Source: Helicobacteraceae bacterium (GTDB lineage: Bacteria; Campylobacterota; Campylobacteria; Campylobacterales; Sulfurimonadaceae). From it: a stretch of 32,555 nucleotides of DNA. The translations under genes were made by a program, and so were the position numbers. Shown in pieces: positions 20,586-24,230 of this stretch. The stretch lies in NCBI GenBank assembly GCA_947498025.1, contig CANMJR010000033.1:1-32555 (forward strand), in the 5' to 3' direction. A model generated the notes under the pieces. It did not search any database, was not told the origin of the DNA, and worked only from the letters and a program-made list of their open reading frames with translations. Within the stretch, counting starts at the first letter, position 1. Each line of letters opens with the position of its first letter.

Positions 20586-20671
20586 CAAAAAACTTGTTTT
20601 TTGTAGCTTTAGGGGGTTGTAGGGACATCTGTCCCTGCCACTCAAGCGGACGCGTTCGTTTGAGTGCGTAA
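20586..20671. repeat. Intergenic two-hairpin repeat, copy 2
   Basis: Second copy of the repeat at 14545-14632. It shares GTAGCTTTAGGGGGTTGTA, followed by a GGGACA-tc-TGTCCC hairpin (20622-20635), CTGCC, and a stem with arms CACTCAAGCG (20639-20648) and CGTTTGAGTG (20657-20666) around GACGCGTT, then CGTAA. Two A-T pairs of copy 1 are C-G pairs here and one is a G-U wobble. It lies between the perR-like gene and prs on the same strand, so it may end the first transcript or sit in the prs leader. Confidence 0.8.
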
Positions 20672-20708
20672 CATCAGTTATTTATTAATTTTTCCAAGAA
20701 GGAATCCC

Positions 20709-21635
20709 ATGCGTGGATATAAGATTTTTGCAGGTTCTGCAAGTATTGATTTTGCAAAAGAGGTTTGCCAAATTTTAGATGTTCCCCTAGCTAAGGCGGA
20801 TATAAAAAGATTTAGCGACGGTGAAATTTCGGTTCAAATTGCTGAGAGTGTTCGCGGACGCGATGTTTTTATCATTCAATCAACAGGAGTTCCATCCAAC
20901 GATAACTTAATGGAACTGCTCATTATGACAGACGCGCTTCGCCGCTCCTCTGCAAGCAGCATAACAGCTGTTGTCCCTTACTTCGGTTATGCAAGACAAG
21001 ACCGTAAAGCTGCACCTCGTGTGCCTATTACTGCAAGACTTGTAGCAGACATGTATGAAACAGCAGGGATAAACAGAGTCGTAACCATCGATTTACATGC
21101 AGGTCAAATTCAAGGTTTTTTCAATATTCCTGTTGACAATCTTTATGGTTCCGTGACATTTGAAAATTACATCAAAAGCAAAAACCTCAAGAATCCAATC
21201 ATCGCTTCTCCGGACATCGGCGGCGTTGCAAGAGCGCGCTACTTTGCTTCAAGAATGGGCTTAGAGATGGTAATCGTTGATAAGCGCCGCGAAAAAGCAA
21301 ATGAGAGTGAAGTTATGAACATCATCGGCGATGTCAACGGCAAAGATGTTATTATGATAGATGACATGGTGGACACGGCAGGAACTATGGTAAAAGCAGC
21401 AACTGCACTCAAAAACAAAGGTGCAACTTCGGTTATGGCATGTGCGACGCATGCGGTTTTAAGTGGAAAAGCTTATGAAAATATAGAAAACGGTGAGCTT
21501 GATGAACTGATTATCACAAACACTCTTCTCTCTAAACCCCATGATAAAATCATAGTTTTAACCGTTGCTCCTCTCTTTGCCGAAGTTATCCGCAGAGTTT
21601 ATCACAACGAAAGCGTAAATTCACTTTTCGCTTAG
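20709..21635 (+). CDS. prs: Ribose-phosphate pyrophosphokinase (PRPP synthetase)
   Basis: A 308-residue cytosolic enzyme making PRPP from ribose 5-phosphate and ATP; PRPP feeds purine, pyrimidine, histidine and tryptophan synthesis. The start is the ATG after GAAGGAA; an in-frame start 45 nt upstream is rejected because it lacks a ribosome site and adds a non-family extension. Motifs: RFSDGEISVQIAESVRGRDV, the flexible loop PYFGYARQDRKA, RVPITARLVADM and the PRPP/ribose-5-phosphate loop IDDMVDTAGTM. The length is typical. A group of hairpins separates it from lepA. Confidence 0.96.
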   Translation: MRGYKIFAGSASIDFAKEVCQILDVPLAKADIKRFSDGEISVQIAESVRGRDVFIIQSTGVPSNDNLMELLIMTDALRRSSASSITAVVPYFGYARQDRKAAPRVPITARLVADMYETAGINRVVTIDLHAGQIQGFFNIPVDNLYGSVTFENYIKSKNLKNPIIASPDIGGVARARYFASRMGLEMVIVDKRREKANESEVMNIIGDVNGKDVIMIDDMVDTAGTMVKAATALKNKGATSVMACATHAVLSGKAYENIENGELDELIITNTLLSKPHDKIIVLTVAPLFAEVIRRVYHNESVNSLFA

Positions 21636-21642
21636 TCCGTAA

Positions 21643-21710
21643 AAGGAACACGTCCCTTTTACTTCGCTGACGCCGCTGAGGCGACTGAAGCTTGCCTCTT
21701 TCGAGGCAGA
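21643..21710 (+). repeat. Cluster of hairpins between prs and lepA
   Basis: Three structures in 68 bp: GTAAAAGG-AACACGTC-CCTTTTAC (21644-21667); CTTC/GAAG enclosing CGCC/GGCG; and TGCCTC-tttc-GAGGCA. The first has the same arm length and a similar 8-nt loop as the second hairpin of the murA and prs repeats, so it may be a diverged relative. No T-run follows, so read-through into lepA is possible. Confidence 0.5.
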
Positions 21711-21734
21711 TATGAATTTTTGAGGAAACATTTT

Positions 21735-23525
21735 TTGAAAAACATTAGAAACTTCTCTATTATCGCGCATATCGACCATGGTAAAAGTACTTTAGCCGAC
21801 CGTATTATTCAAGAGTGCGGTGCCGTAAGCGATAGAGAACTTACAAAACAGATGATGGACACTATGGACATCGAGCAAGAACGCGGAATTACCATTAAGG
21901 CTCAAAGCGTTAGATTGGACTATGTCAAAGATGGAGAACACTATATTTTAAATCTCATTGACACTCCGGGGCATGTAGATTTCTCTTATGAAGTGAGTAA
22001 ATCATTAGCTTCGAGCGATGGTGCACTTTTGATTGTAGATGCTGCTCAGGGCGTCGAAGCGCAGACTATTGCAAATGTCTATTTGGCAATGGAAAATAAT
22101 CTTGAGCTTATACCTGTTATAAATAAAATCGATTTACCGGCTGCAGACCCTGTAAAAGTTGCAGAAGAGATTGAAACAAGTATCGGCATAGATGCTACGG
22201 ATGCTTGTTTAGTGTCCGCAAAAACCGGTGTTGGCATACGCGCGCTTATTGACGCAATTGTTGATAGAATTCCTGCTCCCCTCGGAAACCCTGATGCAAC
22301 CACAAAGGCAATTATCTATGACTCTTGGTTTGACCAGTATCTTGGTGCCCTTGCACTTGTTCGTGTTTTTGACGGTAATATTAAAAAGGGTCAAAACATC
22401 CAGCTTATGAGCAACCTAGAAGAGCACCATATTCTTGATTTAATGTATCCGCATCCGCTCAAGCGTATCAAAACAGACTCAATTGAATGTGGTGAAATTG
22501 GTATAGTTGTTCTGGGACTTAAAGAGGTTAGTGTCATAAATGTTGGCGACACAATTACAGATGCTAAGAATCCTGCGTCCGAGCCTGTTGGAAGATATGA
22601 ACCGGCTAAACCTTTTGTATTTGCCGGTATATATCCAATAGATACGGATGATTTTGAAAATTTACGCGATGCACTCAACAAACTAAGACTCAACGATAGT
22701 TCTCTCTCTTATGAGCCTGAAACATCTCTGGCTCTTGGTTTTGGTTTTCGTGTTGGATTTTTAGGTATGCTTCATATGGAAGTCGTGAAAGAGAGACTTG
22801 AGCGTGAATTTGACCTTGATTTAATCGCTTCTGCACCATCTGTTATCTATCAAGTTTATCTCAATAATGGTGAAAAAGTTAATGTTCATAACCCTTCGGA
22901 GCTTCCGGAAGTCAACAAAATTGACAGAATTGAAGAGCCTTATGTAAGAGCTACCGTTATTACCCCAAGTGAATATCTTGGAAATATTATAACTCTTCTG
23001 ATAAACAAACGCGGCACCCAAAGCAAGATGACTTATCTTAACGAAAATAGAGTGATGCTTGAGTATGAGGTTCCCATGAATGAGATAGTGGTTGACTTTT
23101 ACGATACCTTAAAGTCAATCTCTAAAGGTTACGCTTCGTTTGATTACGAACCTATAGATTTTAGAGTAGGCGATCTTGTAAAACTTGACATCAAAGTAGC
23201 CGGAGAAGCCGTTGATGCACTTAGTATTGTTGTGCCTCGTAATCAAGCCCTCTCCCGTGGTCGCATTTTAGTTAAAAACATGAAAGAGATAATTCCTCGT
23301 CAACTTTTTGAAGTTGCCGTGCAAGCCTCTTTAGGTTCACAAGTTATTGCCCGTGAGACTGTGAAGTCGATGGGCAAAAACGTTACCGCAAAATGTTACG
23401 GTGGAGACATCACCCGTAAACGCAAGCTTTTGGAAAAACAAAAAGCCGGTAAAAAGAGAATGAAGTCCATAGGAAAAGTGCAACTTCCAAGCGAAGCGTT
23501 TTTGTCCGTTTTAAAGATGGATTAG
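21735..23525 (+). CDS. lepA: Elongation factor 4 (LepA), back-translocating GTPase
   Basis: A 596-residue translational GTPase that acts on stalled or mistranslocated ribosomes. The TTG at 21735 is chosen as start because GAGGA lies 8 nt before it and it gives the family N-terminus ([19 protein letters not shown]); a TTG at 21720 lies before that site. GTPase motifs: AHIDHGKST (G1), RGIT (G2), DTPGHVDF (G3), NKID (G4) and SAKTG (G5). The C-terminal domain with [17 protein letters not shown] is specific to LepA. The gene ends [16 protein letters not shown], and this tail is repeated in a separate mini-ORF 128 bp downstream. Confidence 0.95.
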
Positions 23526-23653
23526 AAATGTTTTTCTGCAAATCTTTAGTGAGAGGAATTTTCTTTGGGACTTGTTCCAAAGAGAAGGAGACTTACATGA
23601 CAAAAGTACAGCTTCCAAGCGAAGCTTTTATGTCAGTTCTAAAAATGGACTAA
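23475..23653 (+). repeat. Direct repeat of the lepA 3' end (51-bp units, offset 128 bp)
   Basis: Units 23475-23525 and 23603-23653 match at 42 of 51 bases. The DNA between them shows no clear gene. A regenerated gene 3' end beside the original is what integrative elements leave when they insert into the end of a gene, although no integrase is present here. Confidence 0.7.
23597..23653 (+). CDS. 18-codon mini-ORF duplicating the LepA C-terminus, leader to comF
   Basis: Encodes [18 protein letters not shown]. Residues 3-18 equal the last 16 residues of LepA except one Leu-to-Met. At DNA level the two 51-bp segments (23475-23525 and 23603-23653, including the stops) differ at 9 positions, and 8 of these are silent, counting TAG/TAA. 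An ideal ribosome site, GAAGGAG (23584-23590), lies 6 nt before the ATG. The stop is 1 nt before the comF ATG, which has no good site of its own, so comF may be translated by coupling to this mini-ORF. A longer in-frame version could start at 23528. It may be a recombination or att-site scar, a remnant of a divergent lepA, or a functional leader peptide. Confidence 0.6.
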   Translation: MTKVQLPSEAFMSVLKMD

Positions 23654-23654
23654 A

Positions 23655-24230
23655 ATGCGCTGCATGATGTGCGAGAGCTTTTCGCTTGAGCATATCTGCC
23701 CTACATGTCAAGAGACTTTTTTAACCCCCTCCATTCATAAAAGAAAAATCCTAAACAATATAGAAGTTATCTCCTTTTACAGATACAACGAAATAAAAGA
23801 GTTACTCTTTACAAAGCACACAGACATAGGCTTTTACATCTATACAATTTTGGCAAAAAATAGCTTTAAGAAGTTTGCATCCGAATTTGAATTTCCTACT
23901 ATTATTGCATCTATCTCAATTGATGATAATGCACGAAGCGGCTATTCACACACGGCAATTTTAAACAAAGAACTCAAAGCCAAATTTATAAAGCCCTATT
24001 TCAACAGATTAAGAGACAAAAATAGACTCACTTACGCAGGAAAAAGCAGAGAATTTAGAATCTTAAATCCAAGAAATTTTGAATTTAAAGATTTTGAAGA
24101 AAAAGATGTACTCTTGGTGGATGACATTATTACTACAGGATTAACATTTTCCCATGCCATAAACACCATGTTGCATAACGGAAAAAATGTACTCACATGT
24201 TTAGCACTGGCAGATGTTGGCTTGGAGTAA
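23655..24230 (+). CDS. comF: ComF-family phosphoribosyltransferase-like protein
   Basis: A 191-residue protein with an N-terminal zinc-ribbon (Cys3, Cys6, Cys15, Cys18; CMMC and CPTC) and a C-terminal PRTase fold with the PRPP-type loop VLLVDDIITTGLTF. ComF proteins are needed for natural transformation, where they help bring single-stranded DNA into the cytoplasm. Middle residues HTAILNKELKAKF and LTYAGKSREFRI correspond to the usual 'N.LlaraLa..l...QtglsrreR' region in diverged form. It starts 1 nt after the stop of the LepA-tail mini-ORF. The length is slightly below the family norm (about 200-240). Confidence 0.85.
   Translation: MRCMMCESFSLEHICPTCQETFLTPSIHKRKILNNIEVISFYRYNEIKELLFTKHTDIGFYIYTILAKNSFKKFASEFEFPTIIASISIDDNARSGYSHTAILNKELKAKFIKPYFNRLRDKNRLTYAGKSREFRILNPRNFEFKDFEEKDVLLVDDIITTGLTFSHAINTMLHNGKNVLTCLALADVGLE

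Follow-up and report, generated by a model that had tools for sequence, protein, structure and literature searches.

The junction between lepA and comF in a Helicobacteraceae genome raises the question of why the sequence of the LepA tail is still found immediately ahead of comF even after an insertion at this site. The window analysed here, a 32,555 nt stretch of DNA, contains this junction with its insert and two copies of the tail (Table 1); the upstream reading frame is taken to be lepA from its LepA/EF4 sequence. A first-pass annotation had described the repeated tail, and the repeat is real: 15 of 16 residues and 42 of the final 51 bases are identical, leaving 9 differences. The stop codon of the repeat (23651–23653) sits 1 nt ahead of the comF ATG at 23655, and the GGAG of a Shine-Dalgarno (SD)-like motif ends 6 nt 5′ of an ATG at 23597, both as claimed. 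Moreover, the repeat is not a product of chance, as all 13 genomes with this type of insert at the lepA-comF junction carry a second tail.

Table 1. Features at the lepA-comF junction, in window coordinates.
Feature	Position	Strand	Remarks
lepA	21720..23525	+	601 aa, TTG start; from ORF list and translation
Tail 1 (final 16 lepA codons and stop)	23475..23525	+	
Dispersed hairpin element	23520..23593	+	Covariance model R1, window match at 69.1 bits and E 2.6e-14; the window copy itself belongs to the alignment behind the model
Bridge ORF, 41 aa	23528..23653	+	Crosses the element into tail 2; equivalent ORF open in 14/14 filled lepA-comF junctions
Conserved core CTTTAGTGAGAGGAATT	23544..23560	+	
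Predicted hairpin, 12 bp, loop CUUG	23559..23586	+	Fold of the window copy; helix covariation over 36 copies
AAGGAG, SD-like, 3′ end of the element	23585..23590	+	
ATG taken as a start in the first-pass annotation	23597..23599	+	Codon within the bridge ORF; ATG in 1/13 filled genomes
Tail 2 (second lepA tail copy)	23603..23653	+	9/51 bases differ from tail 1
comF-like gene, 191 aa	23655..24230	+	ORF list; TIGR00201 match (E 3.7e-12, 46.6 bits, under the curated cut-off of 233.55)

The annotation had read tail 2 as part of an 18-codon mini-ORF beginning at 23597, with an ideal ribosome site, just before comF. The copied tail and the site are there, but the unit is incomplete: the frame opens at 23528, with an ATG directly after the lepA stop, and runs to the same stop codon as the mini-ORF. 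Aligning the junctions, as the annotation had suggested, ruled out the mini-ORF as a conserved unit, since only the genome of the window, among 13 genomes filled by such an insert, has an ATG after the SD-like motif; in the close filled relative G124 the codon, read by eye, is ATA. The proposal of a leader that couples comF translation therefore survives in spirit, in a longer bridge ORF that is open in all 14 filled junctions of these 13 genomes, but not in the form of the mini-ORF with its unconserved ATG. Likewise, the ribosome site exists, but as the 3′ end of a dispersed element, to which a covariance model matches at 23520–23593. Upstream of lepA, two further hairpin-like stretches, one of them with GGAACACGTCCC, occupy 21636–21712, following an ORF at 20664–21635. 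Look-alikes are present in the infB-rbfA spacer of other genomes (compare L392 and L398; here, as for dgt, rplI and hslV below, the gene names are assigned from the sequences), and these stretches possibly form another repeat family.

The element is about 75 nt long and consists of the core CTTTAGTGAGAGGAATT, a covarying hairpin and AAGGAG(A); a start codon follows. We collected 140 copies from the genus and a second set of 87, in total 227, choosing them by a core with up to 3 mismatches and an AGGAG-like site, a choice that degenerate copies escape; the exact core is present in 139 of these. Thirty-six copies, when aligned, reveal a helix of 9 pairs in which 94.7% of cells are paired, with 89 double-sided changes as opposed to 27.3 ± 4.6 in shuffles. 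In these aligned copies, GGAATT directly precedes the hairpin and the SD directly follows it. A stem of at least 5 bp on the 5′ side of the core is modestly enriched in the genus (0.49 versus 0.34 shuffled) and shows values of 0.68 versus 0.25 in the second set. Of the three reading frames of the core, Z has stops, and X (..ALVRGI..) and Y (..SFSERN..) are stop-free. A search of four element loci against Rfam returned no family, with four weak matches that all lie under the gathering score. Four copies among the 475 sequences examined belong to a sister subfamily, with the core AGCTTTAGTGACTGAA followed by a hairpin-like stretch and TGAGA, and are likewise close to start codons: L470 (G000:C9:66327-66398), L471 (G000:C14:39417-39488), L473 (G000:C54:1859-1929) and L160. 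L471 contains a small ORF, MNFNSFSPLGVALVTELISGFAADL.

Copies are widespread in the relatives of the window's genome. With the covariance model, 83 of 135 genus genomes are positive, with up to 26 copies each (E ≤ 0.01), as are 65 of 397 genomes and 17 of 68 genera in a sample of the phylum (E ≤ 1e-4); both searches used stricter filters, with which weak copies are lost. All 65 positive genomes of the phylum sample belong to the window's order. In the window's own genome (G000), five matches have E < 0.001, three with the core described here and two (L470 and L471) of the sister subfamily; one of the matches is that inside the window. A pattern scan of named genomes gave at least 118 stretches, and 78 of the 80 listed carry Campylobacterota names; Sulfurimonas, Sulfurovum, Sulfurospirillum and Nitratifractor appear among the listed matches, along with one plain ‘bacterium’ and one Deltaproteobacteria. 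A phage origin was considered and rejected: a composite peptide had no match in phage records, and the one viral contig with the 19-base core pattern lacks the hairpin-SD context. A Y1/RAYT transposase is similarly unsupported as the mover. Y1 was the one family searched; matches are present in 72 of 135 genus genomes, with 10 in the own genome, but there are none in G004, G013 and G015, which carry 8, 9 and 10 copies of the element.

How the insert and the second tail behave can be followed across genomes. Of 120 genomes with a ComF match, 110 were used for reading the junction, the remaining 10 having mostly partial matches or matches near contig ends; 108 of the 110 have a recognisable lepA tail (two have none). 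The element is present in 13 of the 108 readable junctions, and it is followed by the second tail in every case, long in six genomes and short in seven. One filled genome has the unit of element and tail twice, in tandem on a single contig, and the two junctions of G098 are on two contigs of one draft genome with 8% contamination. Junctions whose lepA stop has no core (≤3 mismatches) at a distance of up to 150 nt were called plain, a class that includes some genomes with other inserts or a more distant lepA. In all 14 filled junctions, a bridge ORF starts 4–8 nt past the first base of the lepA stop, with ATG in 12 and GTG in 2, and its frame is open through the element into tail 2. G000 and G124 use frame X of the element and the other 11 genomes frame Y, and all reach tail 2 in frame. 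Since two different frames both enter tail 2 in frame, it is openness that is retained, rather than a peptide.

Plain junctions show how comF lies relative to lepA without the element. In 80 of the 90 that are readable for spacing, comF begins no more than 25 nt from the lepA stop, and 78 of these 80 have no GGAG, GAGG or AGGA ahead of comF; one of these motifs is found in 7 of the 10 junctions with a wider gap. As SD-like motifs are nearly always missing at narrow gaps and mostly present at wide ones, comF is probably coupled to lepA.

The two tails differ almost exclusively at silent positions. Between them we counted 31 silent codon differences, stops included, and a single amino-acid change, a Leu in the own genome's LepA where tail 2 retains the common Met. 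The pN/pS values are 0.03 for tail 2 and 0.04 for tail 1. The first-pass annotation had concluded that such silent-only drift reflects a peptide under selection, either here or inside another lepA, and this stands, with data that favour neither place: tail 2 may have diverged silently under selection in place or, just as well, before it arrived. A remnant of a second, divergent lepA, also raised there, is unsupported, as the tail alone is present.

The best surviving alternative holds that tail 2 is conserved because both tails were recently part of a working lepA. The insert and a tail would move together between species by homologous recombination, and excision between the tails would return tail 2 to lepA. 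Three patterns speak for it. First, filled and plain genomes are interleaved: among 12 tabulated filled genomes, 11 have a plain genome as their best listed lepA neighbour, including G004, whose ungapped lepA alignment is unreliable. Second, tail 1 ends in GAT in 9 of 13 filled genomes as opposed to 20 of 95 plain ones, and tail 2 ends in GAC in 11 of 13, the ending of 74 of 95 plain lepA tails, which is what one would see with a native tail 2 and a tail 1 whose end had arrived with the element. Third, of 27 pairs of species, 20 are more similar in the element than in the adjoining lepA, 5 are less so and 2 equally; in the pair G045/G133, for example, the values are 0.97 for the element and 0.84 for lepA. 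However, re-use alone does not require a bridge frame that is open in 14/14 junctions. We regard this account of tail 2 as a serious contender, although we lean somewhat against it. A foreign lepA in the own genome was also considered and is unsupported: over 1250 nt it is 96% identical to sister G068 and 92% to G067, and the 54-nt tail alone is nearer G067.

Away from lepA-comF, the copies show where the element inserts. In 112 of 140 genus copies and 53 of 87 copies of the second set, an ORF of 60 codons or more has its start codon 4–15 nt after the SD, and ORFs of at least 100 codons that start within 60 nt are in sense orientation in 111 cases versus 8 antisense in the genus and 62 versus 6 in the second set. 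Not one of the 227 copies has a core flanked on each side by at least 60 open codons. From these counts it follows that most copies lie directly 5′ of a gene and share one orientation, and that the element is not situated inside genes. The genes it precedes are unrelated.

Comparison of filled and empty loci places the insertion at the downstream start codon, with a start codon on either side. Between infB and rbfA, read by eye over 150 nt, only the own genome is filled among 30 loci; its sequence is CTATGA, element, ATGAATGAAGC, whereas sisters G068 and G124 have CTGTGAACGAAGC. At dgt, again 1 of 30 loci is filled, with GTATAATG, element, TTAAATGAAGCC in place of the GTATAATGAAACC of G068. 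At rplI-hslV, 4 of 30 loci are filled, one has a shortened in-frame remnant, one is unreadable and 24 are empty, 16 of these 24 with a TAATG overlap. A start codon thus flanks the insert on both sides at infB-rbfA, dgt and hslV, although the exact insert boundaries are approximate. The remnant at rplI-hslV (L449, in G125) still has its frame open from past the rplI stop to the hslV start. At lepA-comF, the empty site is found in sister G068.

The bridge ORF of the window is one of many. We defined a bridge as an ATG ORF that starts between −25 and +20 of the upstream stop and ends between −6 and +8 of the next start, with a close upstream gene being one that ends 15–70 nt ahead of the core and its absence meaning no gene within 160 nt. 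Bridges occur in 63 of the 97 genus copies that have such a gene (the other 34 are not bridged by an ATG ORF), compared with 36.1 ± 3.4 when 5′ and 3′ halves were re-paired (maximum 49 in 5000 shuffles); orthologous copies were counted one by one, so these bridge counts are not independent. The effect is smaller in the second set, in which 18 of 33 are bridged versus 13.1 ± 1.8 re-paired, and because one shuffle reached 19 this set does not decide the matter by itself. Where an upstream gene is absent, copies are never bridged, neither in the genus (0/14) nor in the second set (0/8). The 79 bridge ORFs use frame X in 51 cases and Y in 28. They start at −1 of the upstream stop (ATGA) in 16 cases and at +2 (TAATG) in 22, together 38 of 79, and they end at +1 (24), −2 (17) or −4 (14) of the next start, together 55 of 79, such that many have a stop/start overlap or a spacing of a few nt at both ends. 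Tandem arrays stay in one frame: four 78-nt units form a 109-aa ORF between two genes in L202 (G108:C74), and three 81-nt units an 87-aa ORF, also between two genes, in L233 (G010:C13). Some open frames are not separate small ORFs, as frame X or Y remains open for at least 90 codons past the core, into the downstream gene, in 25 cases in the genus and 10 in the second set. In L208 (G071:C4), the gene that frame Y enters in this way is pseudopilin-like (..GAFSLIELLIVVV..), and the two may be fused in frame.

These counts bear on two further readings. In the first, the element is a cis-acting regulatory RNA, such as a riboswitch, a thermosensor or a protein-binding leader, and its open frame a by-product. 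A conserved core, a covarying hairpin with the SD directly 3′ of it, and a position just 5′ of start codons are all what one would expect of such an RNA. Yet the genes that follow are unrelated, the element is present in the own genome and missing at the same junction in close relatives (infB-rbfA and dgt), no Rfam family was found at the four loci searched, and a bridge frame occurs only with a close upstream gene (63/97 versus 0/14 and 0/8), which together make a regulatory RNA unlikely. In the second, the bridge ORFs encode a functional family of small proteins. Recurring peptides such as SPIGVALVRGI..KGDK and SFSERN.., as well as the in-frame multi-unit versions, are in line with this, and in the short lepA-comF form (seven genomes) the element part has a slightly lower pN/pS in the coding frame, with 0.54 versus 0.76 and 0.62 in the other two. 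In the long form (four genomes), however, the coding frame has the higher value, with 1.41 versus 0.65 and 0.38, and one nucleotide core is read in two frames across the bridge ORFs. Bridge peptides had no match over the cut-off in Pfam (5 tried) or NCBIfam (4 tried). Clear peptide constraint is not seen in the element part of the bridge peptide, and we consider a small protein family very improbable.

The first-pass annotation had also offered an integrative element that used the 3′ end of lepA as its att site. A mobile-looking insert does lie between two direct repeats of that end, with an empty site in the sister, but at ~75 nt (~130 nt with the tail copy) it has no space for an integrase gene in any of the 13 filled junctions, unlike an att-site integrative element, and the same element is common at other gene junctions without such a repeat, so that we give this reading almost no credence. 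Among 73 junctions compared, a script detected that the upstream gene's end is repeated in 8 of 9 lepA-comF junctions, the ninth (L130) having a short tail when read, and in 0 of 64 others; tail duplication as a general route of insertion is thereby ruled out.

We consider it likely that the insert belongs to a dispersed hairpin element that operons tolerate because it is itself translated, with ribosomes passing through it and then reinitiating. The element would land at operon gene junctions, at the downstream start codon, leaving a start codon on either side. Ribosomes ending the upstream gene would reinitiate at the first of these and translate through the element; the bridge would then terminate at the start of the next gene, aided by the element's AAGGAG. 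Translation of the bridge ORFs is what their sequence and position would predict. Where an upstream gene is close, selection would hold the bridge frame open whatever the peptide, as the statistical pattern of bridging suggests. Counting against this explanation, the SD of the element lies a long way from comF in the lepA-comF case. Here the in-frame second tail would restore the native context of lepA stop and comF start without an SD, and comF would thus remain coupled to lepA. The two tails may also provide the homology by which the insert arrives from other genomes or disappears. Such recombination between the tails, in both directions, fits the GAT/GAC endings, the plain nearest neighbours and the higher similarity of the element than of lepA.

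More tentatively, and with a little less than even confidence, we propose a Campylobacterota mobile element that targets the stop/start overlap of coupled genes, has a start codon on both sides and adds a small ORF and an SD without uncoupling the genes, a selfish element adapted to gene-dense operons. The literature that we searched contained no description of a Campylobacterota element that bridges operon genes, which does not prove that there is none. If the bridging explanation is right, repeats have a route to spread inside operons, where insertions are usually harmful, by keeping ribosomes moving from stop to start. It would also account for many tiny intergenic ORFs in Campylobacterota, and would provide natural pairs of filled and empty junctions for the study of termination-reinitiation as well as a ready-made coupling cassette.

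The element is reminiscent of the Rickettsia palindromic elements (RPEs), hairpin repeats that are described as kept in frame, often inside protein genes (PMC10969869, PMC3733652). Like these, it is a small dispersed palindrome, with hairpin covariation and copies in 83 of 135 genomes, whose frame is kept open next to unrelated genes (PMC10969869, PMC3733652). However, whereas RPEs are described as often lying in frame within protein genes, 0 of the 227 copies here are within a gene. The element instead sits at stop/start junctions, mostly as a separate small ORF that ends at the next start; a partial resemblance is seen in the 35 cases, such as L208, in which its frame runs on into the downstream gene.

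With MITEs the element shares its short length, its dispersal, the lack of protein genes for its own movement and the empty sites in relatives. It differs from them in its point of insertion, the start codon at a junction of operon genes, and its covarying hairpin is internal. REP sequences (GTAG/CGTC) with their RAYT are similar as hairpin repeats between genes with many copies in some genomes. The 36 aligned copies, however, have GGAATT and no GTAG/CGTC tag directly ahead of the hairpin, and the genomes with 8–10 copies (G004, G013 and G015) are without a Y1 transposase match.

Translational coupling by termination-reinitiation at overlapping stop and start codons is established (PMC6728339). 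Many bridge ORFs have overlaps of this kind, of the ATGA and TAATG types, at their two ends, and the process that we propose is the same. Whereas the two genes abut in that case (PMC6728339), a dispersed element with a small ORF of its own is interposed between them here.
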